Assembly (NCBI GenBank): GCA_019075865.1
Contig: JAGXAN010000003.1
Span: forward strand, 62,001 to 126,000
DNA: 64,000 bases
Source of the DNA: Hyphomicrobiales bacterium
GTDB lineage: Bacteria > Pseudomonadota > Alphaproteobacteria > Rhizobiales > Beijerinckiaceae
Reading direction: 5' to 3'
The notes beneath the pieces are model-generated. The model ran no database searches, was not told the DNA's origin, and was given only the letters and a program-made list of their open reading frames with translations. The translations under genes and the position numbers were made by a program. How positions within the stretch are numbered: position 1 is the first letter of the stretch; the number at the start of each line of letters is the position of its first letter. This document shows, piece by piece, positions 10,377 through 25,522 of this stretch.

Positions 10377-10453
10377 GGTTCCCCCCTTATTTTTCGCTTA
10401 GTTTTGCATCGAAGCATTATTACCTGATCTCAGCGCCGGTCAATCTGCCAACG

Positions 10454-10915: not shown

Positions 10916-11256
10916 TTCAATGCCTCCTTCAAGCGCTTCAGTCTCTCGCGGATAAGATCAACCTCCATTTGCGGGGTTTTGACGCTCTGCTTTGATTTCT
11001 TCTGAAACGCATGGATCACCCAAATATCCACGTCGATCTTGACGGCATAAATGGCGCGAAAAGCGTCTCCGCGATAGCGCAGCGCAATCTCGAAGACGCC
11101 GCCATCAACCCCTTTGAACGGCTTCGCCTTACCAGACAGCATGCCCTCGGCTGCGACTGTGAGCGCATCAAACACGTCGCTCTGCACGTCCTCCGGAAAC
11201 TCAGAAAAATCCTTGCGGGCGGCTTTCAGCCACGAAATATGCCTAAGGTCTCTCAT
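10912..11256 (-). CDS. HigB/Gp49-like RelE-superfamily toxin
   Basis: A 114-residue protein with the phage-derived Gp49/HigB-like pattern: SWLKAARKDFSEFPEDVQ at the N-terminus, KPFKGVDGGVFEIALRYRGD in the middle, FRAIYAVKIDVDIWVIHAFQ and a Lys-rich KKSKQSVKTP stretch near the end. Family members are ribosome-dependent mRNA interferases. It is the first gene of a two-gene operon with the XRE antitoxin, overlapping by four bases. A perfect 14-base palindrome starts 12 bases ahead of its start codon and probably binds the antitoxin complex. Confidence 0.88.
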   Translation of the reverse strand: MRDLRHISWLKAARKDFSEFPEDVQSDVFDALTVAAEGMLSGKAKPFKGVDGGVFEIALRYRGDAFRAIYAVKIDVDIWVIHAFQKKSKQSVKTPQMEVDLIRERLKRLKEALK

Positions 11257-11663: not shown

Positions 11664-12716
11664 TCAAAGCCGCACCGTCTCGCCGCTGGCGGCGGCGGTT
11701 TTTACGGCTTCTATGACGCGCAGGGTTTTTAGGCCTTCTTCGCCCGAAACCAGCGGTTTTTCGCCGTTTCGGATGACGCGGCAAAATTGCTGGATTTGCA
11801 GAACCAGCGGATCTTGGGAGACCAGCGGATCTTGCGGGGCATAGGCAATGGCGCTGCGGGTGAGGGGCTCCAGCCACGAGCGTTTGTTTTCGGCTTGCGT
11901 GAGCGCCAAATCCGGGATGGTCAGCGCGCCATGGGTGCCGCCGATGAAAATGCAGGGCTGGTTCTGGCGCGGGAAATCGGGGTTTTCGCCGGTGGTCAGC
12001 TCCCAGCTCCAGGGCGCGACAATGGTGTCGCTGACGCTGACCGTGCCCAGAATGCCGTTTTTGAAGCGCAGCAGAATGGTGCAGGTGTCCTCGACCGTAT
12101 GGCCGCGAATGGCGCTGGAATCCATGGCCTGCACGCTGGCGACATCGCCGCAGAAATGGCGCAAAAGATCGACATCATGGATCATGTTGACCAGCACCGG
12201 CCCCGCGCCTTGCTCGCGCCGCCAGGCCATGTCGAAATAATCCTCCGGCTTGAACAGCCAGAAAAAGGCGTGCACGGCCACCAAAGTGCCAAGCTGGCCC
12301 GATTCCAGCGTGGCTTTGGCTTTTTGCACCATCGGGTTGTGGCGGCGGTGGTGGCCGGTGAGCAGCGGCACGCGGGCCCGGTTTGCCGCGTCCACCAGCT
12401 TCTGGCCATCGAACACGGTGGCGGCCAGCGGTTTTTCCATCAGGGTGGGCAGACCGGCAGCAATCGCCTCGAGGCCATTGGCGAGGTGCAGATGGTTGGG
12501 GGTGGCGATGATGATGCCCTCGGGGCGGCCGGCGGCGAGCATGGCGGAAAGATCGGGAAACCACGGCGTCTGGCTGCGCGCGGCCAGGGCTTGTGCGGCA
12601 GGGCTGGGGTCAATAATGGCGTGCAGGGCGGCGGCGGGATCGGCCAGAATATGCTGGATGTGCCGGGCACCGATCAATCCGGCGCCCTGGACGGCAATGC
12701 GGGTGGGGTTTGGCAT
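11664..12716 (-). CDS. Gfo/Idh/MocA family oxidoreductase
   Basis: A 350-residue NAD(P)-dependent dehydrogenase. The N-terminal Rossmann fold starts with RIAVQGAGLIGARHIQHILA; the family signature follows as PTLMEKPLA (Glu-Lys-Pro), and the C-terminal half has the substrate domain with HDVDLLRHFCG, containing the expected active-site Asp/His. Family members act on sugars, inositols, biliverdin and related carbonyls; the substrate here is unknown. Start at 12716 (MPNPTR) sits directly before the Rossmann glycine motif; the upstream open frame is non-coding. It stands alone, divergent from the thioesterase gene. Confidence 0.9.
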   Translation of the reverse strand: MPNPTRIAVQGAGLIGARHIQHILADPAAALHAIIDPSPAAQALAARSQTPWFPDLSAMLAAGRPEGIIIATPNHLHLANGLEAIAAGLPTLMEKPLAATVFDGQKLVDAANRARVPLLTGHHRRHNPMVQKAKATLESGQLGTLVAVHAFFWLFKPEDYFDMAWRREQGAGPVLVNMIHDVDLLRHFCGDVASVQAMDSSAIRGHTVEDTCTILLRFKNGILGTVSVSDTIVAPWSWELTTGENPDFPRQNQPCIFIGGTHGALTIPDLALTQAENKRSWLEPLTRSAIAYAPQDPLVSQDPLVLQIQQFCRVIRNGEKPLVSGEEGLKTLRVIEAVKTAAASGETVRL

Positions 12717-12902
12717 GATGGCTCCGGGGTGTGGGGGTCGGTCAGGCAGGTTCGCGCCATGATGGCGGCGGCTTTTGTGGCTGACAAGCGGGGCTTGGGT
12801 TGTCCTGCGCACAAATCGGCGCGGGTGAGGCGCAATGGCGGTTGCCAAGCCCCCCGGTTGGCGGCAAAGTTGCAACGCCAATGGCACCTTTGGGGGGTGG
12901 TG

Positions 12903-13295
12903 ATGAATTCCAGCAATCAAGACGAAAAGCCGCGCGGCGAACTCACGGTGCGCACCATTGCCATGCCAGCCGATACCAATGCCAATGGTGATATTTTTGG
13001 CGGCTGGGTGCTGAGCCAGATGGATGTGGCTGGCGGCATAGCCGGGGTGGCGCGGGCGCGCGGGCGGGTGGTGACGATCAAGGTCGATACCATGTTGTTT
13101 TTGAAGCCGGTGCAGGTGGGCGACGTGCTTTGCGTCTATACCGAGGTTGAGCATGTTGGCAAAACCTCGATGCGCATTCACATCGAGGCCTGGGCCTTGC
13201 GTTTTCGCACCAATGCCAGGGTGAAGGTGACGGATGCCACCTTCACCTTTGTGGCGGTGGATGACGAGGGCCGGCCACGGCTGGTGCCGGAATAG
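12903..13295 (+). CDS. YciA-type acyl-CoA thioesterase (hotdog fold)
   Basis: A 130-residue hotdog-fold acyl-CoA thioesterase. It carries the YciA pattern: PADTNANGDIFGGWVLSQMD (with the catalytic Asp region NGDIFGGW), KVDTMLFLKPVQVGDVL and VTDATFTFVAVD. YciA enzymes hydrolyse a broad range of acyl-CoAs in the cytosol. The start at 12903 has a G-rich site (GGGGGGTGGTG) right before the ATG; the much longer open frame upstream is antisense to the oxidoreductase. Convergent with metA at 13312. Confidence 0.92.
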   Translation: MNSSNQDEKPRGELTVRTIAMPADTNANGDIFGGWVLSQMDVAGGIAGVARARGRVVTIKVDTMLFLKPVQVGDVLCVYTEVEHVGKTSMRIHIEAWALRFRTNARVKVTDATFTFVAVDDEGRPRLVPE

Positions 13296-13311
13296 GGCAC
13301 AGGGCTTTGGT

Positions 13312-14352
13312 TTACGCGAGGCGCTTGATGGGGCCGGGTGTGGCGGCCAAAGGGTGCGATTGGCTGGCGTAATCGGCCACTTCCCGCAGCCAACCGGCAT
13401 AAAGCGCGGTTGCGAACCCGCTCCAGCGCGGCGCGGGCGCTGCGCTTTGCAGCACAAGCTCAAAATCGGCCAGCAACTCGGGTCTTGGGTTGGCGAGGGC
13501 CGCTTTGTTCAGGGTATCGAGGCCCTTGCGGGTGGCGGGATCAAAGTAGTTTGCCGGATAGGGCGGCAAATCGGGCCGCTGGTGGTTAAGGAACCGGCGC
13601 AGATCGCGGCGGTATTCGAGCATCAAAGTGTCGATTTCATATTCGGGATGGCCGTGGGTGAAAAGCGTGAGGCCGTGGGTGCGGTTGATGAAGGCGTCCG
13701 CACCGACTTCCGCTGACCCGGTCAGCACTTTGTAGCCGCCCGATTCGAGATCATGGATGTCGAGGCCATTGTAACGCGAATGGGGGGTGAGCAGCGGCGC
13801 CTCGATCCGTGCCAGCAGGCCATCGCGGGTGCGGGCCTCGACGCGGTAGACGCCACTGAGCTTTTGCGGCAGCGGGCGGCGGCGGATCTGGTCAAAATGC
13901 AGCACAGCGGCATGGGCTGCCATGCAGGAATAGAGGGTGGGCAGGCGCAGGGCGGCGGCAGCATTCATCGCATCCGTCAACTCGCGCCAATAGGGTTCGT
14001 CGCGCAAATCCGCCTGGTTGGGGACGCCGCCGGTGAAGATGATGCCATCGAGCTGCAAATGCGCGATGTCAGCGGCGTTGCGATAGCGGTAGCGCATGGC
14101 CTCACGCGCCGGAACGCCACGCGGCAGGGCGGGCAGGTGCAGGCGCTCGATGTGAAAGGGCAAGGCGGATCGCCCAGTGGCATGGGAGGCGCGGCGCAGG
14201 AGTTCAGCAAACTGGCGCTCGCTGGCGGCAATGGCGGCGTCCGGCATATTGTTGACGAGGCCAATGCGCAGCGACCGCCGCAGCCCCTGCCAGAGCGGGG
14301 TGGTGATCTTGCGGGTTCTGGATGCGGGTTTGGTGAGCAGGCGCACGGTCAT
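13312..14352 (-). CDS. metA: Homoserine O-acyltransferase, MetA family
   Basis: A 346-residue MetA-family (PF04204-like) enzyme that activates the hydroxyl of L-homoserine with an acyl-CoA for methionine synthesis. Visible features: an N-terminal IGLVNNMPDAAIAASERQF block, the nucleophilic cysteine in LYSCMAAHAAVLHF, and the His/Glu part HGHPEYE. The common GLCWG surrounding of the nucleophile is changed to YSCMA, so it is a divergent member; whether it uses succinyl- or acetyl-CoA cannot be read here. It starts three bases after the metY stop, so both are in one operon, and MetY prefers O-acetylhomoserine. Confidence 0.85.
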   Translation of the reverse strand: MTVRLLTKPASRTRKITTPLWQGLRRSLRIGLVNNMPDAAIAASERQFAELLRRASHATGRSALPFHIERLHLPALPRGVPAREAMRYRYRNAADIAHLQLDGIIFTGGVPNQADLRDEPYWRELTDAMNAAAALRLPTLYSCMAAHAAVLHFDQIRRRPLPQKLSGVYRVEARTRDGLLARIEAPLLTPHSRYNGLDIHDLESGGYKVLTGSAEVGADAFINRTHGLTLFTHGHPEYEIDTLMLEYRRDLRRFLNHQRPDLPPYPANYFDPATRKGLDTLNKAALANPRPELLADFELVLQSAAPAPRWSGFATALYAGWLREVADYASQSHPLAATPGPIKRLA

Positions 14353-14355
14353 GGG

Positions 14356-15711
14356 TTAGACGCAGGCCTCCGTATGGAACAGCGGGCGCACGCCGAGCGC
14401 TGCCTGCAAGGCCTGGTCGAGATCGGCCAGAATGTCGGAAATATGCTCGATGCCGACGCTGAGGCGAATGGTTTCGGGCAAAATCCCGGCCTTGACCTGT
14501 TCGGCGGGCGGCATCTGGCGGTGGGTGGTGGAAGCTGGATGGCAGGCCAGCGATTTGGCATCGCCAATGTTGACGAGGCGCTTGACCAGCTTGAGATTGT
14601 CAAAGAATTTCTTGCCCGCTTCCATATCGCCCGCGACGCCGAAGGTTAGCAGCGAGGCGGCCTTGCCTCCCAGATATTGCCGGGCGAGGGCGTGATAGGG
14701 ACTTTGCGGGAAACCGGCGTAATTGACCCAGGCAACGCGCGGGTCATCGCGCAGAAATTCTGCGACGTGGCGGGCGTTTTCGACATGGCGCTCCATGCGT
14801 AGCGCCAGGGTTTCAATGCCTTGCAGCAACAAAAACGCGCTCATGGGGGCCAGCACGGAGCCGGTGGTGCGCTGGTAAACGCTGCGGGCGCGGGCGATGA
14901 AGGCGGCAGCGCCAAAGCGCTTGGCATAGACGAGGCCGTGATAGGAGGCATCCGGCACGTTGAACATGGGAAAGCGTTCGGGGTAATCCTGCCAGGGGAA
15001 ATTGCCCGAATCGATGATGATGCCGCCCAGCGTGGTGCCGTGGCCGCCCATGAACTTGGTGAGCGAATGCACGATAATGTCGGCGCCATGCTCGATCGGG
15101 CGCAGCAGGGCTGGCGAAGCCACGGTATTGTCGACAATCAGCGGAATGCCGTGGGCATGGGCCATTTTGGCAATGGCGGCGATGTCGCAGATATTGCCAG
15201 CAGGGTTGCCGATGGATTCGCAGAAAATCGCTTTGGTATCGGCGTCGATCATCGCTTCAAGATCGGCGACCTGATCGCTGATTGCAAAGCGGGCGTGAAT
15301 GCCCTGCCGGGGCAAAACATGGGCCAGCAGCGTGTGCGAAGTGCCATATAATTGCGGGGTAACGACGATGTTGCCGCCGTGATCGGCCAGATTGGCGATG
15401 GCGTAGTGAATCGCGGCCTGCCCACTGGCGACCGAGAGCGCGGCAATGGCGCCTTCCATTGCCGCCACCCGCTTTTCAAGAATGTCATTGGTCGGGTTGG
15501 AAATGCGGCTGTAGCGAAAACCGTCGGCTTCAAGGTCAAACAGGGCCGCGGCATGGTCGGCGCTGTCGAAAGTATAGGCGGCGGTTTGATAGATCGGCAC
15601 CGCCGCGGCATGGGTGGTGGGGTCGCCATCAAAGCCGGAGTGCAGCGCCATGGTTTCCAAACGCATGGTCTGGCGCGTGGGTTTGGCGGGGACGGTTGGA
15701 GATTTTTTCAT
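14356..15711 (-). CDS. metY: O-acetylhomoserine sulfhydrylase / aminocarboxypropyltransferase
   Basis: A 451-residue Cys/Met-metabolism PLP enzyme, fold type I. Signatures include [29 protein letters not shown], and the PLP-lysine block [14 protein letters not shown]. It makes homocysteine from O-acylhomoserine and sulfide. The start is set at 15711 ([14 protein letters not shown]), where GGAAG precedes the ATG; a further 27 open codons upstream run into the next gene. It lies 41 bases after the amino acid:carrier-protein ligase gene and three bases before metA, so the leftward transcript may contain acyl-CoA dehydrogenase, ligase, metY and metA. Confidence 0.93.
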
Positions 15712-15752
15712 TGCTTCCAGCTTTGGCAAAGTGGTTTGAGCCGAATGGCCGA

Positions 15753-16682
15753 TCAATCCAGGGCGAGGGTGGCGCGCACGCTTTGCGGCCATTTTTTGGG
15801 GTCAAGCCCATGCGTGCAGAACAGGGCCACGGCGAGGCGATCCATGCCGAAGGCGACGCAACCGGTATGGGCATGGTTGCCTTCATCATCGCGAATGTCC
15901 CAGACCTCGCCAAAATGCTCGCGGTGGTAATTGAAGCTCATGCAGGCGGTGGGTTTTTCCTGCGAAATCACCGGCACCAGCAATTCAAATTTCAGCGATT
16001 GCTCGACCTGGCTGGCCGCCATCAATTCACCGCCGCGCCCAAAGAATGGATCGCTGGCGACATCGACGCGATAGGGCAGGCCAATGGCGTCGGCCATGCC
16101 GGTGGCGCGCTCCATCCATTCCTTGCGGAAGGACTGGATCTGGTCCGGCTTGGCGATGCGCACATATTCGCGCATGCGGAAGCTTTGCAACCGGTCGAGG
16201 TTATTGGAAGGCTCGCGGCGGAAGCAATCGGCGGCAACATCATAGAGCAGGCCATCGGCCGGCAATGGCCCAAGCGCGGCGGCGATCGGGTAGATCGGGT
16301 AGCAGGAGGCGGGGGTGAGCACCAGATCGGCGGAACTGAGGCTGTCCGTCCATTCGCCCGTCCCGCAGGTGAAGCGCGAGACCGCCGCTTTGATGTCGCG
16401 CTCCGAGCCGCCAAGGCAGCAGACGCAGCCCAGAAGATTGGGGAAGCTTGACAGATACCCGGACTTTTCAATCATGGCGCGGGTCATGACGGGGGGGAAG
16501 CGATAGACATGCGTGCCGCTCTGGCGCTGGCGGGTGATATAATCCTCCAGTGCGCGAACGATGCCTTCATAAAGGCCGGTGCGGCCGTAAACCCCGGGTG
16601 CACCCATGGGGGAGAACAGGTGCCGGGCAATCGAGTCGAGCTTTTCAGGGGATGAAATCGGCTGTTGCATTGCAATGGTCAT
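15753..16682 (-). CDS. Amino acid:[carrier protein] ligase (SerRS-like)
   Basis: A 309-residue protein related to the catalytic domain of atypical seryl-tRNA synthetases but lacking a tRNA-binding arm. Class II motif 2 appears as CFRREPSNNLDRLQSFRMRE and motif 3 as GCVAFGMDRLAVALF. Three likely zinc ligands, Cys127, Glu172 and Cys275, keep the same spacing as Cys131/Glu176/Cys279 which I recall for Bradyrhizobium Bll0957. Those enzymes load glycine or alanine onto the phosphopantetheine arm of a carrier protein instead of tRNA. An acyl-CoA dehydrogenase gene lies eight bases upstream and a carrier-protein gene diverges 0.3 kb further, the same company as in Bradyrhizobium. The product of the pathway is not known. 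Confidence 0.92.
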   Translation of the reverse strand: MTIAMQQPISSPEKLDSIARHLFSPMGAPGVYGRTGLYEGIVRALEDYITRQRQSGTHVYRFPPVMTRAMIEKSGYLSSFPNLLGCVCCLGGSERDIKAAVSRFTCGTGEWTDSLSSADLVLTPASCYPIYPIAAALGPLPADGLLYDVAADCFRREPSNNLDRLQSFRMREYVRIAKPDQIQSFRKEWMERATGMADAIGLPYRVDVASDPFFGRGGELMAASQVEQSLKFELLVPVISQEKPTACMSFNYHREHFGEVWDIRDDEGNHAHTGCVAFGMDRLAVALFCTHGLDPKKWPQSVRATLALD

Positions 16683-16690
16683 GGCGGCTC

Positions 16691-17929
16691 CTAGTGATTT
16701 TGCAGGTTGTGAGGGGTTTCAACCAGCAGGGTCGAATTGCCGAGATTGGTGGCGATGCGGTCATTGTTGATCATCACCGGCGCGGCCAGAATATCGCGAA
16801 GCTGGCGTCCAATGCTGGCCTCGCAATCCTCGCGATAACCGGTAAGGCCGCAGGCGCGCAGGCTGGCCATGACGCTGGCGACCGCGTGCTCGGAAATATC
16901 CACTTTCAGCAGGGTGATTGCGGTTTGAAAATCCAGCGCCGACAGGGCCGCCGGGTTGTTTTCAATGGATGCGAACTGGTTCAGCATATCCTGAAGCATG
17001 GCCCGCAACGTGGTGAGGCCGGTGCGGGCCTTGGCCAGATGCACCAGCCCGCCGGGAGGTTGGGCCGCGCCTCGCGCGGCTTTGCGCAGGTGCAGGCGGG
17101 CACGCTCATGCGCGGTGGCGGCAATGCCGGCCCATACGCCGCCCCACATCAGATGGGCGGTGGGCGTCATGGTCTGGGTGTGAATTTCAGCGTAGGGCTG
17201 GGGCATGATCTGCACGGCCTGGCCTTTGGCCGCCATGTGGAAGCCGCCGCTACAGGTGCCGCGCATGCCCAATGTCTGCCAGCTGAAGGTCGGGCTTAAG
17301 GTGTAATCGGCCTTGTCAAACACGACCAGAACCTGATCGGAAGACAGCGATCCAGCGGCGCGGCGGGCGGTGGTGACAATGGCGTCCGCCTGCGCGCCAT
17401 AGGAAAGCACGGTAGCGGCGCGCTCCAGCGAGATCAATGCGCCATCATAAACCACCGGGGCCTCACTGTTGCGCACGTCGCCGCCCGCCTGCCCTTCCGT
17501 GGTGGAGGAGGCGAGCAACAATTGCTGTTGCACCATGCGGCACATGAATTCGCGGTGCCAGGCGCTGGCTTGCCCGTGCCGCACAATGCAGGCGGCTTTG
17601 ACATGGTGCATGGCAAATATCATCGCCGCCGAAGAACAGGCCTGGCCCAATATGTAACAGGCGTCGACAATATCCTGCACGCTGGCCCCTTCACCGCCGA
17701 GGCTGACGGGCACCATGGCTCCCAGCAGCTTTTCGTGGCGGGCTGCGTCCATCGCCTCTACCGGAAAACGACTGTTGGCATCGACATCATCCGCATGCAG
17801 GGCGGCAATGGCGGCGACCCGCTCGGCACGCTCACGCAACAGCCCTTGCGGGTGATCGCCAGTTGGCTCTGGCTGGGCAGGGGTTTCCAACTTGTGAGTT
17901 GCCGAAAAATCGACGTGATGAATATTCAA
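16691..17929 (-). CDS. Acyl-CoA dehydrogenase-like flavoprotein of the aminoacyl-carrier-protein locus
   Basis: A 412-residue acyl-CoA dehydrogenase-superfamily protein. The fold is visible from RHEKLLGAMVPVSLGGEGA (N-terminal helical domain), through ASSTTEGQAGGDVRNSEAP (beta domain, flavin contacts), to the C-terminal four-helix region. The canonical motif with a catalytic Glu near the C-terminus (YEGTSE type) is not present; the equivalent part reads RDILAAPVMINNDRI. This suggests an unusual chemistry such as oxidation of a carrier-bound aminoacyl group, or a monooxygenase-like reaction. It heads the leftward transcript, eight bases before the ligase gene. The carrier-bound substrate is inferred from context. 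Confidence 0.85.
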   Translation of the reverse strand: MNIHHVDFSATHKLETPAQPEPTGDHPQGLLRERAERVAAIAALHADDVDANSRFPVEAMDAARHEKLLGAMVPVSLGGEGASVQDIVDACYILGQACSSAAMIFAMHHVKAACIVRHGQASAWHREFMCRMVQQQLLLASSTTEGQAGGDVRNSEAPVVYDGALISLERAATVLSYGAQADAIVTTARRAAGSLSSDQVLVVFDKADYTLSPTFSWQTLGMRGTCSGGFHMAAKGQAVQIMPQPYAEIHTQTMTPTAHLMWGGVWAGIAATAHERARLHLRKAARGAAQPPGGLVHLAKARTGLTTLRAMLQDMLNQFASIENNPAALSALDFQTAITLLKVDISEHAVASVMASLRACGLTGYREDCEASIGRQLRDILAAPVMINNDRIATNLGNSTLLVETPHNLQNH

Positions 17930-18251
17930 CTCGTTCTCCTGCGTATAACATAGGATATGTTGGCGGATAGCTTTATAAATTACCGCATTTCCTCCGGTTT
18001 TACCAACAATCTCGATATGTAGCGTTAAATGATCTGGTTAATTATTCAAAATAATTTATGATTGATTTTTTGGTATCGATTTATACTCTGTTAAGCAAAG
18101 AAAGTTGTTAAGCATGTTTTGCGGTTTCAATGACAAAAATCAGTTGGCAGCGGTGCGCCGCGGCTGAATGGGCCGGGCTTAAGCGGAATTTAACAGGGCG
18201 GGTGCAAGCCTAGGGGCCAACATCGGCTTCCAACATTGAAATGTGCACGTC
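17930..18251. promoter_or_regulatory. Divergent AT-rich promoter region with repeats
   Basis: About 320 bases separate the leftward acyl-CoA dehydrogenase gene from the rightward carrier-protein gene, much more AT-rich than either. It holds a perfect inverted repeat AATTATTcaaAATAATT at 18040-18056 and two copies of TGTTAAGCA in direct orientation at 18089-18097 and 18106-18114, 17 bases apart start to start. These look like regulator sites for coordinated control of both directions. No gene is visible. Which regulator binds is unknown. Confidence 0.45.
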
Positions 18252-18533
18252 ATGGCTCAACCCGCTTTGCAAGATTCGAACAAACCAAAGGACGTTCAGA
18301 CCCGCGTGTCGGGGGTCGTTGATGCGCTGGTGGCGCGGCGCAAGCCGGCGGCCGTGCCGGTGGGCCCGACCGAGATATTAAGCGAGGTTGGCTTGACCTC
18401 GCTCGACATGGTCAACCTGATGCTGGGCATCGAGGAAGAATTCGATCTTTTCGTGCCGCAAAAGCAGATGGTGCCGGACAATTTCCGCACTATTTCGGCC
18501 ATCGTCGCCTTGCTTGGCGGGCTTTTGACTTAA
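18252..18533 (+). CDS. Acyl/aminoacyl carrier protein (first of two)
   Basis: A 93-residue phosphopantetheine carrier protein. The attachment site is Ser50 in EVGLTSLDMVNLMLGIEEEF; TSL replaces the more common DSL, and acidic helix II follows as in other carrier proteins. The start at ATG 18252 is preferred to a GTG at 18243; no strong ribosome site is visible for either. Given the divergent amino acid:carrier-protein ligase gene, this protein is the best candidate to receive the activated amino acid. It is followed after ten bases by a hydrolase gene and then an aminotransferase gene. Confidence 0.9.
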   Translation: MAQPALQDSNKPKDVQTRVSGVVDALVARRKPAAVPVGPTEILSEVGLTSLDMVNLMLGIEEEFDLFVPQKQMVPDNFRTISAIVALLGGLLT

Positions 18534-18543
18534 GGCATTGACT

Positions 18544-19464
18544 ATGGCGCTGGACCCATTTGCGGCGCGGTTTCTGGCGATGATGGGCCGTCCTGTGGCG
18601 ACGCCGCCGACGTCATTTGCGGCGCGCCGGCAAGGGCTTTCTGACCTCGCAAGGGTGGCGGACCGGGTCGAGCCGGGGGTTGCGACGCGCGATCTGGTGA
18701 TGGTGGGGCCGGGCGGCGAGATGCGCTTGCGGCTTTACGGCGGGCCAGTTTCTTCAAGGGCCTGCGTGATTTATCTGCATGGCGGCGGACTTTGCGCCGG
18801 GGGGCTCGATACCCATGCTGGCCTATGCAGCCGGTTGGCCGCGGCTTCGGGCCTGCCGGTGCTGGCGCTTGCCTATCGCCTGGCGCCCGAGCATCCCTGT
18901 CCGGCGGCGCTGGAGGATGGCGCGGCGCTGATTACCGCCCTGCTGCGCGCGCCTGAAAGTCTGGGCCTGACAAGCGGGCCGCTGATTCTGGCGGGCGATT
19001 CGGCGGGGGCGACGCTGGCGCTGGTGCTGGCGCTGCGATTCGCGCCGCAGATTGCGCGGCTGTTGCTGATCTGCCCGATCGTTGACATGGGCGGAACAGC
19101 CGATTCACGCTTGCGCTTTGGCGAGGGCTATTTTGTCGATGCGCAAGTGATTGCAGCGGATCTGGCGGCCTATCTTGCGCCGGGCATGTCGGCGCGCGAT
19201 CCGCAGATTGCGCCGCTGTTCAGCCCGGATCTGGCGCGTCTGCCGCCGATTGATCTGCATGTGGCGGACTATGATCCGTTCCGTGACGAGGGGCTGGATT
19301 TGGCGGCGCGGGTGGGTGAGGCGGGCGGCAAGGTAAGCCTGACCCGCCACCCCGGCATGATCCATTATTTCTATGCGCTGGCGCGCGCCATTCCCTATGC
19401 CGGGGAAGCGGCGGCGATGATGGGGGCGCAATTGCGCGAGGCCACGCAAGCTGGCGAATTCTGA
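18544..19464 (+). CDS. Alpha/beta hydrolase, hormone-sensitive-lipase family
   Basis: A 306-residue serine hydrolase. The HSL-type oxyanion motif HGGG is at residues 79-82, the nucleophile Ser153 sits in GDSAGA, and the rest of the triad is probably Asp244 (YDPFRDEG) and His274 (GMIHYF). No signal peptide. Family members are short-chain esterases or amidases. It sits between a carrier protein and an aminotransferase gene, so a role in releasing or processing a carrier-bound intermediate is plausible. ATG 18544 is preferred to an in-frame TTG six bases earlier because AAGG is better spaced. Confidence 0.88.
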   Translation: MALDPFAARFLAMMGRPVATPPTSFAARRQGLSDLARVADRVEPGVATRDLVMVGPGGEMRLRLYGGPVSSRACVIYLHGGGLCAGGLDTHAGLCSRLAAASGLPVLALAYRLAPEHPCPAALEDGAALITALLRAPESLGLTSGPLILAGDSAGATLALVLALRFAPQIARLLLICPIVDMGGTADSRLRFGEGYFVDAQVIAADLAAYLAPGMSARDPQIAPLFSPDLARLPPIDLHVADYDPFRDEGLDLAARVGEAGGKVSLTRHPGMIHYFYALARAIPYAGEAAAMMGAQLREATQAGEF

Positions 19465-19529
19465 TCCATCGGTCTAGGATGGCGCAACCACAGGCTTGCG
19501 GTATCCACCCGATTTCAAGAGGGGCTCAC

Positions 19530-20408
19530 ATGAGTTTGATAAAATCGAAGGTCACTTATTCGCGCACCTGGACGTATTTTCAAGATGGCTGGCACGAAGG
19601 CAATGTCGCGCTGATGGGGCCGCGTACGCATGGGGCGTGGCTGGGTTCGACGGTGTTTGACGGCGCGCGGGCCTTCGAGGGGATGACACCTGATCTTGAT
19701 TTGCACTGCGCGCGGGTCAACCGCTCCGCCGAGGCTTTCATGCTGAAGCCGGTGGTGCCGGTGGCGCAATGGCTGGCGCTGGCGCATGAGGGCATTGCCC
19801 GCTTTGATGGCAAAACGGCGCTTTATATTCGCCCGATGTATTGGGCGGAAAATGGCATGGGTGGCGGCGTCAAATACGACCCCGACACCACGCAATGGTG
19901 CCTGAGCCTTTACGAAGCGCCGCTGGTCGAACCCAAGGGCACCTCGGTGACGCTGTCGCCGTTCCGTCGCCCGACGCGCGAAACGGCACCGCTGGAAGCC
20001 AAGGCTGGCTGCCTCTACCCCAATAATGCCCGCGCCATTGCCGAGGCCAATTCGCGGGGTTTCGACAATGCGCTGATGTGCGACATGCTGGGCAATGTGG
20101 CCGAGCTTGCCAATGCCAATGTGTTTCTGGTGCGTGACGGCATCGTGCAGACCTCTGTGGCCAATGGCACTTTCCTGAGCGGCATCACCCGGGCACGGAT
20201 GATCGGGCTGTTTCGCAAGGCGGGTCTGAGCGTGGAGGAGACAACCTTGCGGCCGGCTGATTTTCTTGCCGCCGACGAGATATTCTCAACCGGCAATTAC
20301 AACAAGCTGGCACCCGTGACACAGATTGAAACCCGAAAGCTGGAAGCCGGGCCGGTGTATGAACTGGGCCGCAAGCTCTATATGGAATTTGCCAGAAGCG
20401 GGGCTTGA
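19530..20408 (+). CDS. Branched-chain-type aminotransferase (fold type IV)
   Basis: A 292-residue PLP enzyme of the IlvE/BCAT class. PLP lysine is Lys158 in APLEAKAGCLYPNNARAIAE; the cofactor-binding block GFDNALMCDMLGNVAELANA includes Glu192, and GTFLSGITRARMIGL follows. It exchanges amino groups between glutamate and a branched-chain or similar keto acid. A GAGGGG site precedes the ATG at 19530, ruling out the longer frame. Housekeeping IlvE is possible, but its place within the carrier-protein locus suggests supply of an amino acid or amination of an intermediate. Confidence 0.9.
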   Translation: MSLIKSKVTYSRTWTYFQDGWHEGNVALMGPRTHGAWLGSTVFDGARAFEGMTPDLDLHCARVNRSAEAFMLKPVVPVAQWLALAHEGIARFDGKTALYIRPMYWAENGMGGGVKYDPDTTQWCLSLYEAPLVEPKGTSVTLSPFRRPTRETAPLEAKAGCLYPNNARAIAEANSRGFDNALMCDMLGNVAELANANVFLVRDGIVQTSVANGTFLSGITRARMIGLFRKAGLSVEETTLRPADFLAADEIFSTGNYNKLAPVTQIETRKLEAGPVYELGRKLYMEFARSGA

Positions 20409-20415
20409 GGGCCGG

Positions 20416-21303
20416 TTAATCGCCGAAAATGGCCAGCTCGGTATAGGCCAGATCGTTCTGGCGCGGCGGATTCGGGCCGCGCGCATATTTGGGATTATTG
20501 CCCATTTTGAAGCGACCGGGCAGCCCCTGGATCGGGGCGTCGCAATCCAGCGCGACCGTGTATATGCGATGTTCGCGTAGCAATCTCCGGCCAATCGCAC
20601 CGGCCATGTCGGCAAAGGCTTGCGTGTCGCGGCAATAGATGAGCTGGGCGCCGGGCAGGCGCAGGCGGGTGAGGCGGCGGCGCGCAAACACAAAGGGTTG
20701 CATCGCGGCTTCGCCCGGCCCGGCCAGCAGCACGATGGCGCCAAGGCGCGCGTGGTCCTGTAGCAGGGTGAGTTCCTCGGCGGGCAGGAAACGGCCATGC
20801 CTTTCCGGTGCCAGGGCCTCGACCCGCGCCCGACCCCGTGCCAATGCCGGAAAAGCGGTGAGGAGGCCGTTGACATAGGGCCGGTAGCCCTGCGCGGTGA
20901 GGATGGGCCGCGTGGCGGGGGCGGGCGAAATGTTGATGTAAGTGACATCCTTGGCGCGCAGGGCCTTGCCGACCAGCAAGGCGGCATAGGCGCGAAACTC
21001 GGGCACCACATACCAGCTTGAGACATTGGCGCGGGCGCCGAGGGTTTCGGGGGCATAAATGAGCAGCAGCGCGCCAACAACGCGGGCTTCCTGCACCAGT
21101 ATAAAGCCGTAGCGCGGCCGCGTGGGCGGGGCCGGGAGGGCGGTGAGGTTCGCCAGCCCGCGCTCCCAATAGCGGTGCGATCGCTCGGGAAAGCCGGCGC
21201 AGAGCAGCGTGATCACGGCAGGCAAATCTGCCTTCGCAATCTCGCGGCATAAAACCCGTGCGGGGGAGTCGGGCAGTGGGGGGTGAGCGATCACGCCGTT
21301 CAA
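20416..21303 (-). CDS. GNAT-like acyl-CoA acyltransferase
   Basis: A 295-residue protein resembling the acyltransferases often annotated as acyl-CoA N-acyltransferase (GNAT superfamily). The N-terminal half starts with CREIAKADLPAVITLLCAGF and contains GFILVQEARVVGALLLIYAP and SSWYVVPEFRAYAALLVGKA, the typical beta4-alpha3 acetyl-CoA-binding region. A second, weaker repeat-like half follows. It is the only leftward gene between two rightward blocks and is convergent with the aminotransferase gene, divergent from the second carrier protein. A role in acylating the product of the locus is possible but unproven. Confidence 0.7.
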   Translation of the reverse strand: MNGVIAHPPLPDSPARVLCREIAKADLPAVITLLCAGFPERSHRYWERGLANLTALPAPPTRPRYGFILVQEARVVGALLLIYAPETLGARANVSSWYVVPEFRAYAALLVGKALRAKDVTYINISPAPATRPILTAQGYRPYVNGLLTAFPALARGRARVEALAPERHGRFLPAEELTLLQDHARLGAIVLLAGPGEAAMQPFVFARRRLTRLRLPGAQLIYCRDTQAFADMAGAIGRRLLREHRIYTVALDCDAPIQGLPGRFKMGNNPKYARGPNPPRQNDLAYTELAIFGD

Positions 21304-21349
21304 AAATTCAACTCCGGAAGGGCTAACACGCGAGCCCGGCTATCAATAA

Positions 21350-21367
21350 TTAAGGGTTGAGCCTTAA
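21350..21367. promoter_or_regulatory. Inverted repeat in the divergent promoter of the second carrier-protein operon
   Basis: TTAAGG and CCTTAA flank a six-base centre between the leftward GNAT-like gene and the rightward carrier-protein gene (90-base intergenic space). It may be a binding site that controls the four-gene rightward unit. Its short length means chance occurrence cannot be excluded. Confidence 0.3.
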
Positions 21368-21393
21368 GATTGCCTAAAGTGACAGGAGTTGAG

Positions 21394-21636
21394 ATGGACG
21401 TAAAACAGACCGTTGCGGACTGCATCGAGCAGGTCGCCAAAGCGCAGAACAAAGTCATACCGGCGATTTCCGACCAATTGGTTTTGCTGGAATCGGGGCT
21501 GGATTCGCTGTGCTTTGCCATTGTCGTTGCCACGCTCGAAGATGAGTTGGGGGTCGATCCGTTTGCCACCAGCGAAGACGTGCATTTTCCGGTGACGTTT
21601 CTGGATTTTGTCAGGCTCTATGAACGCGCGCTTTGA
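21394..21636 (+). CDS. Acyl carrier protein (second of two)
   Basis: An 80-residue carrier protein with the phosphopantetheine serine Ser38 in a standard DSL motif (LESGLDSLCFAIVVATLEDE). Start at 21394 has AGGAG seven bases upstream. The next gene, an AMP-forming ligase, starts 17 bases before this gene stops, so the two are translationally coupled; the ligase likely loads this carrier. The sequence differs clearly from the first carrier protein at 18252, so the two probably serve different substrates. Confidence 0.92.
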   Translation: MDVKQTVADCIEQVAKAQNKVIPAISDQLVLLESGLDSLCFAIVVATLEDELGVDPFATSEDVHFPVTFLDFVRLYERAL

Positions 21637-23011
21637 GCCTTTGTCCGCCCAGTCGCGGCTGAGCCTGCGGGCACGGGTGGCTGCGGCGACCGGGCACGGG
21701 CCGCGCTGGCTTTTTGGCGCTGAGCGGCAATTGCAGCTGGATGAGGCGCTGGCGGGCACTGTTTTGCCGCAAGCCTCGATCATGCATGACAAGATTGTGG
21801 TACTGCGCTTTGCCTCGCAACTGGCCAATGCGCTTGCTTTACTGGAACTGGATGGCATCGCCAGCCAGATCGTGCTGTGCCCGCCGGACGTGCAAGGCGC
21901 GATGCTGGCGCAGATATGCACGCAGGCGCGTGCCGATTTCGTGGTGAGCGATGGCGCGATGGCGGATGAAGCCGGTCTTGAGGCCACCATCGTTGAACTT
22001 GCCGCCGATTTTACCGCGCGCCTTGCGCCGACATTGCCGGCCATTGACACAAAGTGGCTGTTGTTGACATCGGGCACTACCGGTGCACCGAAACTGGTGG
22101 CGCATAGCCTGCCCGGCCTGACTGGTGCGATCATCAGCCAGGGCGCTGACTTCGACATTGTGTGGGCGACATTTTATGACACGCGCCGATATGGCGGGCT
22201 GCAAATGCTGCTGCGGGCGCTGCTGGCGGGCGGCTCGATGGTGTTTTCGCAGGCTGAAGAACCGGTCGGGGCGTTTCTGACCCGTCTGGCCCGGCATGGC
22301 GTTACGCATCTGGCGGGGACGCCCTCGCATTGGCGGCGGGCGTTGATGAGCGCGGAAATCAAAAGCCTGAAACCGCGCTACCTGCGCCTTTCAGGCGAAA
22401 TTGCCGATCAGAGCGTTTTGAATGCGTTGCGCGCGGCGTTTCCGGATGTGCCCGTTGGCCATGCCTATGCCTCGACTGAGGCGGGTGTTGGCTTTGAAGT
22501 CACGGATGGGCTGGAGGGTTTTCCGGCGTCGTTTCTGGAGCGGGTGGGGCCGGTGGAAATGCGGGTGCAGAATGGTACATTGCGCATACGCTCGCAACGC
22601 ACTGCCAGCCATTATATCGGTGCCGGGGCGCTGGCCGATGATGAGGGTTTTGTCGATACCGGCGATCTCGTCGAGGCGCGCGGCGGGCGTTATTATTTTC
22701 TGGGCCGGGCCAGCGGCATCATCAATGTGGGCGGGCTGAAGGTTCACCCCGAAGAAATCGAGGCGGTGCTGAATGGCGTTGCCGGGGTGCAATTGTCCCG
22801 CGTCAAGGCGCGCAAAAGCCCGATCACCGGCGCGATTGTGGTGGCCGAAATCGTGGCGGCTGATCCGGCCAGTGCCGGGCCGGCGTTGAAAGCCACGATC
22901 CTGGCAGCGGCACAGGCGGCGCTGCCCGCCTACAAGGTGCCGGCGCTGATCCAGTTTGTCGCGCAATTACCGATGACCCGTGGTGGAAAACTGGAGCGCG
23001 CCCATGCGTAA
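21620..23011 (+). CDS. AMP-forming acyl/aryl ligase coupled to the second carrier protein
   Basis: A 463-residue class I adenylate-forming enzyme. The ATP motif TSGTTGAPK lies at residues 150-158, the acyl-adenylate block reads HAYASTEAGVGFEV, followed by DTGDLVEARGGRYYFLGR and the C-terminal VGGLKVHPEEIEAVL with catalytic Lys457 near the end (RGGKLERAHA). It is short compared with acyl-CoA synthetases (usually over 500) and similar in size to stand-alone ligases that charge carrier proteins. It overlaps both the preceding carrier-protein gene and the following reductase gene. Substrate unknown. Confidence 0.9.
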   Translation: MNARFEPLSAQSRLSLRARVAAATGHGPRWLFGAERQLQLDEALAGTVLPQASIMHDKIVVLRFASQLANALALLELDGIASQIVLCPPDVQGAMLAQICTQARADFVVSDGAMADEAGLEATIVELAADFTARLAPTLPAIDTKWLLLTSGTTGAPKLVAHSLPGLTGAIISQGADFDIVWATFYDTRRYGGLQMLLRALLAGGSMVFSQAEEPVGAFLTRLARHGVTHLAGTPSHWRRALMSAEIKSLKPRYLRLSGEIADQSVLNALRAAFPDVPVGHAYASTEAGVGFEVTDGLEGFPASFLERVGPVEMRVQNGTLRIRSQRTASHYIGAGALADDEGFVDTGDLVEARGGRYYFLGRASGIINVGGLKVHPEEIEAVLNGVAGVQLSRVKARKSPITGAIVVAEIVAADPASAGPALKATILAAAQAALPAYKVPALIQFVAQLPMTRGGKLERAHA

Positions 23012-23735
23012 TGTGCTGGTGAGTGGCGCAAGCCGGGGCATTGGCCTTGCCATAGCGCAGCGGCTATGCGCCGATGGCTTCAATGTCATCGGTCTGGCCC
23101 GAAATCCGAGCGATGCATTTCGGGCCGCCGAGCGGGCCGCGAGTACGGCAGCCGGAAAATTGCATTTCCGGCAGGCGGACCTTTCCGATGTCGATGCGAT
23201 TGCCGGACTGGTGCGCGCCATCAAGGCGGAGTTTGGTGCCTATTACGGGCTGGTCAACAATGCTGGCCTCAGTCAGGAGGGCCTGCTTGCCATTCTCACC
23301 CAGCGCCAGATTGAATCGATGGTGCGGCTCAACACTTTGTCGCCGATGCTTTTGACGAAATTTGCGGTGCGCTCGATGATGGCCGAGGGGCGCGGGCGGG
23401 TGATCAATATTTCCTCGATTATGGCTTCGACCGGTTTCAGCGGGCTGAGCGTCTATGGCGCGACCAAGGCCGGGATGGTGGGCTTTACCCGCTCGTTGGC
23501 GCGGGAAGTGGGGCGGGTGGGTGTGACGGTCAATGCGATTGCGCCGGGATTTATCGATACAGAAATGACCGCTTCGATGGGCGATGCCGAGCGGGCGAAA
23601 ATCGCGGGCCGCAGCGCATTGGGCCGGTTGGCGCAGGTGGATGACATTGCCAATGCCGCCAGTTTTCTGATGAGTGACGCGGCGGCCAATATCACCGGCA
23701 CCGTGATAACCGTGGACGCAGGTTCCACCGCATGA
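23004..23735 (+). CDS. FabG-like SDR, probable 3-oxoacyl-carrier-protein reductase
   Basis: A 243-residue short-chain dehydrogenase. The cofactor motif GASRGIG is at residues 8-14, NNAG at 85-88, and the catalytic Ser138, Tyr151 and Lys155 are in NISSIMASTGFSGLSVYGATK. The end (ITGTVITVDAGSTA) is FabG-like. It would reduce a 3-oxo group on a carrier-bound chain with NADPH. The start at 23004 overlaps the ligase stop by eight bases, and its own stop overlaps the next ligase as ATGA. This tight packing shows a single translational unit dedicated to one pathway. Confidence 0.9.
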   Translation: MRNVLVSGASRGIGLAIAQRLCADGFNVIGLARNPSDAFRAAERAASTAAGKLHFRQADLSDVDAIAGLVRAIKAEFGAYYGLVNNAGLSQEGLLAILTQRQIESMVRLNTLSPMLLTKFAVRSMMAEGRGRVINISSIMASTGFSGLSVYGATKAGMVGFTRSLAREVGRVGVTVNAIAPGFIDTEMTASMGDAERAKIAGRSALGRLAQVDDIANAASFLMSDAAANITGTVITVDAGSTA

Positions 23736-25522
23736 ACGCGGCCTTGCCCGACGCGCGCTCGCCCAACAAGATCTGGCTGCAGGCATTGGCGGCGACCGCA
23801 TCGCTGCATGCCAATTCGCAGCGGCTTTTGGGCGATGTGGTGGAGGAATGGGCGCAAAAGCAGCCGCAGGCCCCGGCGATCCTGTCTGATCGCGGCAGCC
23901 TGAGCTATGAGGAACTCGCCAAAGCCATGCGCCGCTATGTCCGATGGGCGGTGAGCGCTGGCCTCAAGCCCGGCGATTGCGTGGCACTGATGGCGCAAAA
24001 CCGGGGCGAAACGCTGGCGGCGTGGCTGGGGTTGACGCGGCTTGGCATTGTCGTGGCCTTGATCAATTGTCATTTGCGCGGCGTCGCGCTCAGCCATTGC
24101 CTTGCGGCGGCGGGTGCGAAAGTGCTGCTGCTGGCGGGGGAACTGGCGGCGGAGATCGACGCGGCGGCGCTGGAAAATGCCCCGACGCTGCTGACGATGG
24201 AAGCGGAAGGCGCTTTTTCGCGCGCCCTGCTGGCGCAAAAGGATACGCCCATTGATTTTGATGGGCTCTGGGGCGCAGAAGCGGTGGCGCGGCCAAGCCT
24301 TTCAGACCCGGCTTTGCTTATTTACACCTCCGGCACCACGGGCTTGCCCAAGGCGGCGTTTGTCAGCCATCACCGGGTGATGAGCTGGAGTTTCTGGTTT
24401 TGCGCCATGCTGGACGCTTCGCCGCGCGATCGGCTCTATGATTGTCTGCCATTGTATCACTCGGTGGGTGGTGTTGTGGCTCCGGGCGCCATGCTGGCCG
24501 CTGGCGGGGCGGTGGTGGTGGCGGAGAAATTCTCGGCCAGCCAGTTTTGGGCAGATATTAGCCGCTGGGATTGCACGATTTTTCAATATATCGGCGAATT
24601 GTGCCGCTATTTGCTGAACGCGCCGCCGCAACCACTGGAGCGCGGTCATCGCTTGCGCTGCATTTGCGGCAATGGCCTCTCGGGGGAGGTGTGGGAAGCG
24701 TTTCAGGCGCGCTTTGCCATTCCCCGGATATTTGAGTTTTATGCGGCGACTGAAGGTAATTTCTCGCTCTACAATGTGGAAGGGCGTGTGGGCGCGATCG
24801 GGCGCGTGCCGGGGTTTCTGGCGCACCGGTTTCCGTTGGCGCTGGTGCGGTTTGATCGCGAGCGCGGTGCGCCCTACCGCAACGCGGCAGGGTTTTGCGA
24901 GCGGGTGGCTGTAGGGGAGGCTGGCGAGGCAATCGGTTGGATCGACCCGTCGCGTGGGGCCAGCGGGCGCTTTGAAGGCTATACCAATGCGCAGGAAACG
25001 CAGAACAAGCGGCTGGATCATGTTTTTGCGCCCGGCGATGCGTGGTTTCGCACCGGGGATTTGATGCGCGCGGATGCGCAGGGCTTTTATTATTTTGTCG
25101 ATCGCATCGGCGATACGTTTCGCTGGAAAGGCGAGAATGTTGCAACCAGCGAAGTGGCACGGGTGATGGCAATGGTGGCGGGGATTGCCGAGGTCTCGGT
25201 TTACGGCGTCGAGGTGGCGGGGGCGGACGGCCGGGCCGGCATGGCGGCGCTGGTGGTGCGCGACGGCTTCGATATTGGGGGCCTCGCCCGCGCGCTGGAC
25301 GCGGCCTTACCCGCCTATGCGCGGCCGGTATTTTTGCGGATCGTGCCGCAAATGGCGCTGACCGATACGTTCAAGCAGAAAAAGGCGGCGCTGGCGGCGC
25401 TGGGCTTTGATCCGGCGGACAGCGCCGACGCGCTCTACGTGCGACCGGCCGGGGCGGCGGATTTTCAGCGGCTCGATGCCCTTGTGCATCAGGCGATTTT
25501 GCAAGGACTGGTGCGGCTTTAG
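23732..25522 (+). CDS. FATP/VLACS-type AMP-forming acyl-CoA synthetase
   Basis: A 596-residue adenylate-forming enzyme of the very-long-chain/fatty-acid-transport-protein group. YTSGTTGLPK is at residues 198-207; the family-typical FQYIGELCRYLLNAPPQP and FYAATEGNFSLYNVEG blocks follow, then RTGDLMRADAQGFYYFVDRI and DTFRWKGENVATSEV. It ends with the FKQKKAAL lysine region. It activates long-chain or steroid-like acids with CoA. The ATGA overlap with the reductase makes it the last gene of the carrier-protein operon. It could supply the acyl group for the pathway. Confidence 0.9.
   Translation: MNAALPDARSPNKIWLQALAATASLHANSQRLLGDVVEEWAQKQPQAPAILSDRGSLSYEELAKAMRRYVRWAVSAGLKPGDCVALMAQNRGETLAAWLGLTRLGIVVALINCHLRGVALSHCLAAAGAKVLLLAGELAAEIDAAALENAPTLLTMEAEGAFSRALLAQKDTPIDFDGLWGAEAVARPSLSDPALLIYTSGTTGLPKAAFVSHHRVMSWSFWFCAMLDASPRDRLYDCLPLYHSVGGVVAPGAMLAAGGAVVVAEKFSASQFWADISRWDCTIFQYIGELCRYLLNAPPQPLERGHRLRCICGNGLSGEVWEAFQARFAIPRIFEFYAATEGNFSLYNVEGRVGAIGRVPGFLAHRFPLALVRFDRERGAPYRNAAGFCERVAVGEAGEAIGWIDPSRGASGRFEGYTNAQETQNKRLDHVFAPGDAWFRTGDLMRADAQGFYYFVDRIGDTFRWKGENVATSEVARVMAMVAGIAEVSVYGVEVAGADGRAGMAALVVRDGFDIGGLARALDAALPAYARPVFLRIVPQMALTDTFKQKKAALAALGFDPADSADALYVRPAGAADFQRLDALVHQAILQGLVRL

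Follow-up and report, generated by a model that had tools for sequence, protein, structure and literature searches.

The window, i.e., the whole stretch of 64,000 nucleotides analysed here, contains a gene cluster in which an aminoacyl-tRNA synthetase (aaRS)-like ligase is encoded together with a flavoenzyme, two carrier proteins, an acyltransferase and further enzymes, and gene clusters of this kind occur in Bradyrhizobium, Rhodopseudomonas and other bacteria. A previous, sequence-only reading had placed a biosynthetic locus at positions 15753-25522. Every gene that it named was found to be an intact open frame at or near the position assigned to it, with family or fold matches in agreement; its limits, however, proved too narrow, as a homoserine-related gene pair (13312-15792), as well as a TPP enzyme and a cupin of related loci, lie outside them.

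The ligase gene (aaCPL; 15753..16682, reverse strand) encodes a class II aaRS-like amino acid:[carrier protein] ligase of Bll0957 type, assigned by model NF005479 (441.2 bits, cut-off 357) and with a PF00587 match slightly below the cut-off (28.3 versus 29.3 bits). Its nearest solved relative is Bll0957 (PDB 3mey; E 3.4e-130), and along the alignment of both, which covers ligase residues 13-308, the 309-aa protein constitutes a class II core devoid of a tRNA-binding domain; methanogen-type SerS models align to it only from model position 226 or 249 of 518. Residues C127, E172 and C275, which we take to be the zinc ligands of the active site, are invariant in 12 aligned ligases. Divergently from the ligase operon, CP1 (18243..18533, forward strand; PF00550, 24.7 bits) encodes an aminoacyl carrier protein that, within the PDB, best matches Aminoacyl carrier protein 1 (4h2s; E 2.5e-14), and PDB entries 4h2s-4h2v contain both that carrier and Bll0957. 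The serine of the CP1 motif GLTSLDM is conserved in the alignment. Judging from these relationships, the ligase would load glycine, or another small amino acid, onto CP1.

Beside the ligase gene lies that of an acyl-CoA-dehydrogenase-fold flavoenzyme (ACAD; 16691..17929, reverse strand; PF02771), and both adjoin each other in 38 of 40 ligase loci. The predicted structure of ACAD (pLDDT 83.6) matches those of MCAD (8sgp; Z 37.6) and SCAD (8sgs; Z 37.9) over 365 residues, and its fold matches at Z values of about 38 comprise monooxygenases and dehydrogenases alike, so that oxygenase and dehydrogenase are not separated by this comparison. In a sequence alignment of 14 proteins, the catalytic glutamate was absent from the MCAD-type and IVD-type positions, where ACAD displays Ile387 and Ala258, positions that we assume to be the usual sites of the catalytic base; Ile387 is invariant in the 14 sequences, and position 258 is Ala, Ser or Thr. 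Two earlier calls were thereby sustained: that of a SerRS-like ligase, by the NF005479 score and the invariant Cys/Glu/Cys positions, and that of a "non-standard" acyl-CoA dehydrogenase, by the ACAD fold with no acid aligned at either base position.

The right side of the cluster begins with CP2 (21370..21636, forward strand), a second carrier protein whose PF00550 score lies just below the cut-off (20.7 versus 20.8 bits) and whose G(L/F)DS motif contains a serine shared by all 11 aligned CP2 sequences. It is followed on the same strand by LIG1 (21608..23011; PF00501, 71.2 bits; PF13193, 38 bits), a short AMP-forming ligase presumed to load CP2, the latter being present in all of the best 80 LIG1 loci; by a FabG-like short-chain reductase (22980..23735; PF13561, 185.3 bits; TIGR01830, 210.6 bits, below the cut-off of 297.75); and by FadD (23732..25522), a long-chain acyl-CoA synthetase of PRK08279 type (NF006134, 708.9 bits, cut-off 625).

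Upstream of CP2, on the reverse strand, a gene at 20416..21303 encodes a GNAT-like protein that displayed no match to Pfam models up to an E value of 0.1, to NCBIfam models up to 0.01, or, as a profile, to PDB sequences up to 1. Its predicted structure (pLDDT 93.3) was recognized by structure search as a tandem GNAT fold, and the matches listed include glucosamine N-acetyltransferases and span many kinds of acceptor; on the grounds of this fold, the protein probably performs acyl transfer. The GNAT fold, along with phosphorylase-superfamily and IF-2B-family genes found beyond CP1 in a related locus (L033), brought up the idea of a LuxI-type AHL synthase. This candidate was set aside as less likely, as the 50 matches listed in each fold search were acetyltransferases or other acyltransferases, with no LuxI among them. 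We take the two L033 genes to be MTAP and MtnA.

In this genome, which is 99.18% complete, the claim that the locus operates without an NRPS or PKS megasynthase is borne out: there is no match to the condensation domain PF00668, and the six PF00109 (ketosynthase family) matches lie in frames of 403-440 aa, which are not of PKS size.

The homoserine pair and other accessory genes

Left of the ligase, on the reverse strand, HTS (13312..14352) encodes a MetA-type homoserine O-acyltransferase (PF04204, 175.7 bits; NF003776, 301.4 bits, below the cut-off of 358) and metY (14356..15792) an O-acetylhomoserine sulfhydrylase-type PLP enzyme (TIGR01326, 596.3 bits, cut-off 495.1). The family match of metY starts at residue 45; therefore, its real start is probably inside the 14356-15792 frame. 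HTS is the sole PF04204 match found in the genome. That metY might be the only such enzyme of the cell is ruled out by the four strong PF01053 matches, of which it is one. Among 23 further loci in which the ligase and LIG1 lie together (see below), HTS is present in 13 and metY in 14, and the pair is thus part of the locus in 13 or 14 of them.

Between CP1 and the GNAT gene, the forward strand encodes an HSL-type alpha/beta hydrolase (18538..19464; PF07859, 177.3 bits) and a class IV (BCAT-type) transaminase (19479..20408; NF009896, 454.2 bits, cut-off 262), each present in 10 of the 23 loci. The transaminase was rejected as a pathway-specific gene, given that homologues above the cut-off were too common (18 of 20 panel genomes, including four of the six lacking LIG1). 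A TPP enzyme and a cupin (CUP) occur in 12 and 11 of the 23 loci, respectively. TPP homologues are present in 188 of 249 genomes, with the copy of G000 sitting on another contig. All six TPP copies scoring above 1,010 bits are near LIG1; the LIG1-linked copies of G042 and G147, at 861 and 857 bits, score like many unlinked ones. The TPP enzyme was likewise rejected as pathway-specific, because its subfamily is common and these two linked copies score in the range of many unlinked ones.

Distribution of the gene set among genomes and loci

The sample comprised 249 genomes of the order Hyphomicrobiales, of which 52 encode the ligase family and 13 a ligase of Bll0957 type, the ligases of the 12 relatives being 59-68% identical to that of the window. 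In a profile search, LIG1 was found in 14 of the 249 genomes, and a GNAT score of at least 195 bits was obtained in exactly the same 14. A preset check compared the left and right genes of the locus, which the sequence-only reading had joined: LIG1 is present in 13 of 13 genomes with a Bll0957-type ligase versus 1 of the 236 others (hypergeometric 8.5e-21, uncorrected for kinship), in agreement with that proposal. In genera g3, g39, g64 and g66, some of the sampled species have both the Bll0957-type ligase and LIG1 and others have neither; therefore, kinship alone does not explain the co-occurrence. Both genes do not lie within one 20-kb stretch in 6 of the 13 genomes (G035, G042, G112, G143, G147 and G218). 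Thus, the left and right genes co-occur even when unlinked, and they probably serve one process.

In the Bll0957 clade, 11 of 13 genomes have CP1 adjoining the ligase. In the genus mates G042 and G147, the ligase locus and the LIG1 locus were both searched and neither yielded a CP1 relative; the ligase of these genomes may therefore depend on CP2 or on a carrier encoded elsewhere. The 23 further loci hold the ligase and LIG1 within approximately 21 kb, in varying gene order, and share CP2 (23), ACAD (23), CP1 (22), FabG (22), GNAT (19, missing from four) and FadD (17, one of them, in L137, being a 26%-identical match only). A tally of 18 different gene orders among them was disregarded, being raised by contig ends and weak matches.

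The right half of the locus, i.e., the LIG1 side, also occurs in some genomes without the ligase. From 61 genomes whose LIG1 locus contains no ligase, 20 were drawn and searched: a ligase above the cut-off was not found in six, including all four from Acidobacteriota and Rokubacteria, and the GNAT was not found in five. Among the 249 genomes, G188 displays LIG1 and the GNAT with no ligase above the cut-off.

Conversely, a sister clade of the ligase is present in 35 genomes, beside other genes. It resembles the Bll0957-type loci in a ligase of 43-52% identity, an adjacent ACAD and, in most loci, a small gene of carrier-like type encoded on the same strand; it differs in that these genomes have no LIG1 and in its other neighbours, namely DUF1839-like and GH2-like genes. 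The GH2-like gene was seen in 26 of the 26 sister-clade loci looked at (domain-scanned in L034 only), and L034 also has a bacterial sugar transferase gene. In a quick tree, which is used only for the separation of the sister clade, since long branches were flagged and the 19 named loci in the tree were LIG1-positive by construction, the 26 LIG1-lacking sister-clade rows fell on one fully supported branch.

A proposed pathway and its rivals

Building on the gene identities, the conserved clustering, the co-occurrence and the lack of a condensation-domain match observed here, we consider it slightly better than an even prospect that the locus encodes one conserved, altemicidin-like pathway that relies on two discrete carrier proteins instead of a megasynthase, with glycine held on CP1 and a (hydroxy)acyl group on CP2. 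In its first arm, glycine, if not some other small amino acid, would be activated by the SerRS-like ligase and transferred to CP1, where ACAD may oxidise the bound group. In the second arm, LIG1 would place a carboxylic acid on CP2, the FabG-like enzyme might reduce the CP2-bound acid to a hydroxyacyl group, and FadD would activate a fatty acid. By analogy with the altemicidin GNATs, the tandem GNAT could then join both arms by moving a carrier-bound group onto an amine. Building blocks might be supplied or finished by the transaminase, the hydrolase and the HTS/metY pair, and in other loci also by the TPP enzyme and the cupin. In which order the steps occur, what each accessory gene contributes and what is finally made are guesses; conceivable products are a homotaurine or glycine lipid, a sphingoid-like base or a methionine-derived acid. 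A more specific version, which we regard as distinctly improbable, is that the base-less ACAD oxidises glycyl-S-CP1 at the nitrogen or alpha carbon, that the resulting unit is joined to the CP2 acyl group, or else to an acyl anion that the TPP enzyme provides, and that FabG reduces the ketone. If true, acylated or beta-hydroxylated amino acids would be made here with neither a ketosynthase nor an NRPS, by a route that extends across Bradyrhizobium and further Alphaproteobacteria and that megasynthase-based cluster finders would readily overlook.

It is somewhat unlikely that the product is instead a decoration, that is, an acylated amino acid attached to a polysaccharide of the cell surface or to an aminolipid of the membrane, in which case the GNAT would acylate an amino sugar or an amino head group. 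Genes in keeping with this idea include a polysaccharide flippase gene near CP1 and the cupin (L037, L040), a polysaccharide deacetylase adjoining the TPP enzyme (L072, L080), a GT4 glycosyltransferase after CP1 (L076), a GINT1_N/GH43-like gene (L110) and a nucleotidyltransferase adjoining FadD (L152); however, any one of these sugar genes was seen in only a few of the loci inspected, and different loci have different ones, an observation that is not a systematic count. In the window, the gene to the left of the cluster (11664-13463) encodes a Gfo/Idh/MocA oxidoreductase that scores partially against models of sugar and inositol dehydrogenases, but the right-hand neighbours of the cluster are QRPTase, DUF937 and LytB genes. 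The long-chain type of FadD and the sugar-related genes of the sister clade (GH2-like and, in L034, sugar transferase) also fit a decoration, as do the glucosamine N-acetyltransferases among the GNAT fold matches, although these matches span many acceptor kinds.

Nor do we consider it likely, and less so than a decoration, that the locus combines two independent modules brought together by a same lifestyle, one (CP2-LIG1-FabG-FadD) making an acyl product and the other (ligase-ACAD-CP1) a glycine-derived group. Each arm is indeed found without the other, and they are at separate places in 6 of 13 genomes; against this, both arms are present in all 13 genomes that have a Bll0957-type ligase, are jointly present or jointly absent among the sampled species of four genera, and lie within approximately 21 kb in the 23 further loci. 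As for ordinary genes of fatty-acid and amino-acid metabolism located beside the ligase by chance, FadD, FabG, the transaminase and the hydrolase do belong to large families, with common homologues in the case of BCAT. A chance gathering is nevertheless very unlikely, to the point of being hardly credible, because the same genes are found again, variously arranged, in 23 further loci; GNAT and LIG1 relatives with high scores also track the ligase, and the co-occurrence counts already contradict chance.

The product of a single two-carrier pathway would go unflagged by megasynthase-based genome mining. Since 54 of the best 80 LIG1 loci belong to Bradyrhizobium, soil and nodule bacteria may commonly produce it.

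Comparison with known systems

Sphingolipid-type acyl carrier modules include a serine palmitoyltransferase-like alpha-oxoamine synthase in the cluster, and none was called among the genes of the window's cluster scanned with Pfam and NCBIfam. Regarding the flavoenzyme, ColB1 (7xp7), which performs tethered-cysteine oxidation, shares the fold of ACAD (Z 37.4, rmsd 2.8 over 356 residues), and the prolyl-ACP dehydrogenase 4irn is matched by the ACAD sequence profile at 1e-9. They would be alike in their working only if ACAD also acts on a carrier-bound amino acid; in contrast to both, ACAD has no acid at either base position, and monooxygenases are equally good matches to its fold.

For altemicidin/SB-203208, the available part of the source describes two adenylating enzymes, two carrier proteins, an aaRS-like enzyme and a cupin in the sbz cluster, with GNATs that use carrier-bound acyl groups and an aaRS-like enzyme that is IleRS-like and was assayed with tRNA (PMC6331615). 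The window's cluster, too, combines two adenylating enzymes with two carrier proteins and encodes a GNAT, the profile of which has no sequence match to any PDB chain (up to E 1). It differs in having a class II SerRS-like carrier-protein ligase instead of the IleRS-like enzyme, and the sbz cupin has a counterpart in 11 of the 23 relatives' loci and none in the window's cluster. That same part of the source contains no mention of an ACAD, FabG, FadD, TPP enzyme or homoserine pair for altemicidin (PMC6331615).

The role of amino acid:[carrier protein] ligases, whose structures have been solved, was still called unknown in the accessible portion of a 2022 review (PMC9437257), and beyond it no pathway was named for them among the matches listed in the literature searched. 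With Bll0957 and Aminoacyl carrier protein 1, the window shares a ligase that aligns with the former and a CP1 that matches its partner carrier. The difference lies in the wider partner gene set here tied to the Bll0957 type, by which an orphan enzyme gains a testable pathway in cultivable and mutable bacteria, and through which the gene cluster could point to the function of an enzyme family of unknown purpose as of 2022.

A run of twelve genes and its ligase

Twelve intact genes lie within 13312-25522, on a 416 kb contig of a 3.29 Mb genome that is 99.18% complete. The leftmost four, encoding a homoserine O-acyltransferase (HTS), an O-acetylhomoserine sulfhydrylase-type enzyme (metY), a SerRS-like amino acid:[carrier protein] ligase and an acyl-CoA-dehydrogenase-fold flavoenzyme (ACAD), are on the minus strand, followed on the plus strand by a carrier protein (CP1), an alpha/beta hydrolase (HSL) and a class IV transaminase (BCAT). 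A tandem-GNAT acyltransferase gene (GNAT, minus strand) separates BCAT from the rightmost four genes, which overlap at their ends and are again encoded on the plus strand: a second carrier protein (CP2), a short AMP-forming ligase (LIG1), a FabG-like reductase (FabG) and a long-chain acyl-CoA synthetase (FadD). All genes named in the sequence-only reading were recovered as intact frames, and its left limit proved too narrow, as HTS and metY, from 13312, belong to the run. Left of the cluster, the stretch 8100-11256 (GC 0.46-0.52 vs ~0.62) is probably a small acquired insert; it encodes a Gp49/HTH_37 pair resembling a toxin-antitoxin module and an HTH/Peptidase_M78 protein that scores 195.7 bits against PADLOC RmrA models. 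Further left, at 1464-7544, are cobalamin-type genes (nitrite/sulfite-reductase-like, CobN, CobW and DUF1636).

The ligase scores 441.2 bits against a curated cut-off of 357 for the amino acid:[carrier protein] ligase family, and its best solved relative is Bll0957 (residues 13-308, E 3.4e-130), which charges glycine. Residues C127, E172 and C275, invariant among 12 homologues, are presumably the zinc-binding residues of the published structures. The best match of CP1 is Aminoacyl carrier protein 1, which occurs with Bll0957 in entries 4h2s-4h2v. For such ligases, a 2022 review gives Gly, Ala and Ser as amino acids (PMC9437257).

The GNAT gene had no Pfam or NCBIfam match and its profile no PDB sequence match; its predicted structure, a confident model (pLDDT 93.3), has a tandem GNAT fold. 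The ACAD model retains the ACAD fold, and sequence alignment places Ile at the catalytic Glu position of medium-chain dehydrogenase, and Ala, Ser or Thr at that of isovaleryl-CoA dehydrogenase. Its structural matches to TdsC/DszC monooxygenases, to ordinary dehydrogenases and to ColB1, which by its entry title dehydrogenates carrier-tethered cysteine, all fall within ~1 Z of one another, so the fold does not single out a reaction type.

Co-occurrence across Hyphomicrobiales

Three queries, the ligase, LIG1 and GNAT, were run against one set of 249 genomes from the order. The ligase family was present in 52, all of which were placed: the Bll0957 type accounts for 13 (that of the window plus 12 at 59-68% identity to it), a sister clade for 35 (43-52% identity), and distant or partial matches for 4. 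The sequence-only reading had staked its case on the left and right genes co-occurring, which they do: LIG1 was found in 14/249 genomes, comprising all 13 with the Bll0957 type plus G188 (hypergeometric 8.5e-21, kinship ignored). The kinship objection is partly answered by genera g3, g39, g64 and g66, in which some sampled species have both Bll0957-type ligase and LIG1 and others neither; a sister-clade ligase is present in the two g3 species without LIG1, and a distant homologue in one g64 species. In 6/13 genomes, LIG1 is distant from the ligase or lies on another contig, so linkage by itself does not account for their association. GNAT matches at 1e-10 occurred in 26/249 genomes; those of at least 195 bits, in 14 genomes, coincide exactly with the LIG1 set, the other 12 reaching at most 161 bits. 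CP1 and the ligase are neighbours in 11/13 Bll0957-type genomes; no CP1 lies at either the ligase or the LIG1 locus of genus mates G042 and G147, so among the loci examined the pairing is not universal in this clade.

The sister-type ligase (e.g., loci L034 and L036) has other neighbours. Among 26 sister-clade loci examined, the GH2-like family of L034 was found in all 26 and its DUF1839-matching family in 14, and L034 and L036 carry a sugar transferase and a glycosyltransferase, respectively; these neighbours suggest amino-acid decoration of exopolysaccharide.

Gene neighbourhoods and the limits of coupling

LIG1 relatives in named genomes were confirmed at 294 places, and the best 80 of these loci were kept, including 54 from Bradyrhizobium, 5 from Rhodopseudomonas, and others from Caulobacter, Methylobacterium, Bauldia, Lichenibacterium, two Acidobacteriota and two Rokubacteria; two metagenome-assembled genomes (MAGs) whose loci hold both ligase and LIG1, labelled Mycobacteriaceae (L102) and Burkholderiales (L089), may be misassigned. 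Counting any match at 1e-4, some of them weak, CP2 was matched in 80/80, FabG in 79/80 and FadD in 72/80, and the ligase shared the locus in 19/80. Pooling with the order's loci, with L037 and L039 dropped as repeat genomes, gave 23 loci holding ligase and LIG1 together, the window excluded. Among these, several interrupted by contig ends, matches of at least 40 bits were found for ACAD and CP2 in 23, CP1 and FabG in 22, GNAT in 19, FadD in 17, metY in 14, HTS in 13, a TPP enzyme in 12, a cupin in 11, and BCAT and HSL in 10 each.

Gene order differs among the 23. In the f36 genomes, which we read as Bradyrhizobium-type from the match between the CP1 of L033 and Aminoacyl carrier protein 1 (1.5e-46), the genes occupy two places, GNAT-ligase-ACAD/CP1 and FadD-CP2-LIG1-FabG. 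The window's genus is split differently (HTS-metY-ligase-ACAD; TPP-GNAT and CP2-LIG1-FabG-FadD), with GNAT beside TPP near the acyl arm (CP2, LIG1, FabG and FadD) and HTS-metY beside the ligase. In L033, CP1 is followed (12552-14564) by phosphorylase-superfamily and IF-2B-family genes, which we take to be the families of methionine-salvage MTAP and MtnA, again hinting at sulfur amino acids.

For 20 of the 61 LIG1 loci without ligase, the whole genome was checked, and 14 had a ligase over the cut-off elsewhere. The six without one were the four tested Acidobacteriota/Rokubacteria genomes, one with a weak match (139.6 bits), and alphaproteobacterial MAGs L088 and L098, which may be incomplete; five of these six were also the only genomes of the 20 lacking GNAT. 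The acyl arm therefore occurs without the glycyl arm (ligase, ACAD and CP1). Both Acidobacteriota loci, L075 and L083, contain metY and HTS, in genomes with neither ligase nor GNAT at the cut-offs used. L075 also encodes a PLP-dependent decarboxylase (16146-17573), and L083 a gene similar to it by eye (17683-19041).

Proposed assembly and its closest known counterpart

By analogy with altemicidin/SB-203208 assembly, the ligase would charge glycine onto CP1, LIG1 would charge CP2, FabG would reduce the group bound to CP2, and GNAT would form the bond. Homology supports the single activities; the pairing of carriers with enzymes, and the product, are inferences. A search of the genome (99.18% complete) gave no condensation domain, and its six ketosynthase-family matches all lie in 403-440 aa frames. 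Among the literature matches listed, no publication describes this gene set; most subscription journals lay outside the search, and a description may be in print elsewhere. The closest published working model in the literature examined is altemicidin/SB-203208 assembly, which uses a pair of adenylating enzymes, a pair of carrier proteins, and GNATs that transfer groups from the carriers to an amine or hydroxyl (PMC6331615). We place the gene set within a known kind of system, discrete carrier-protein assembly, and not in a category of its own.
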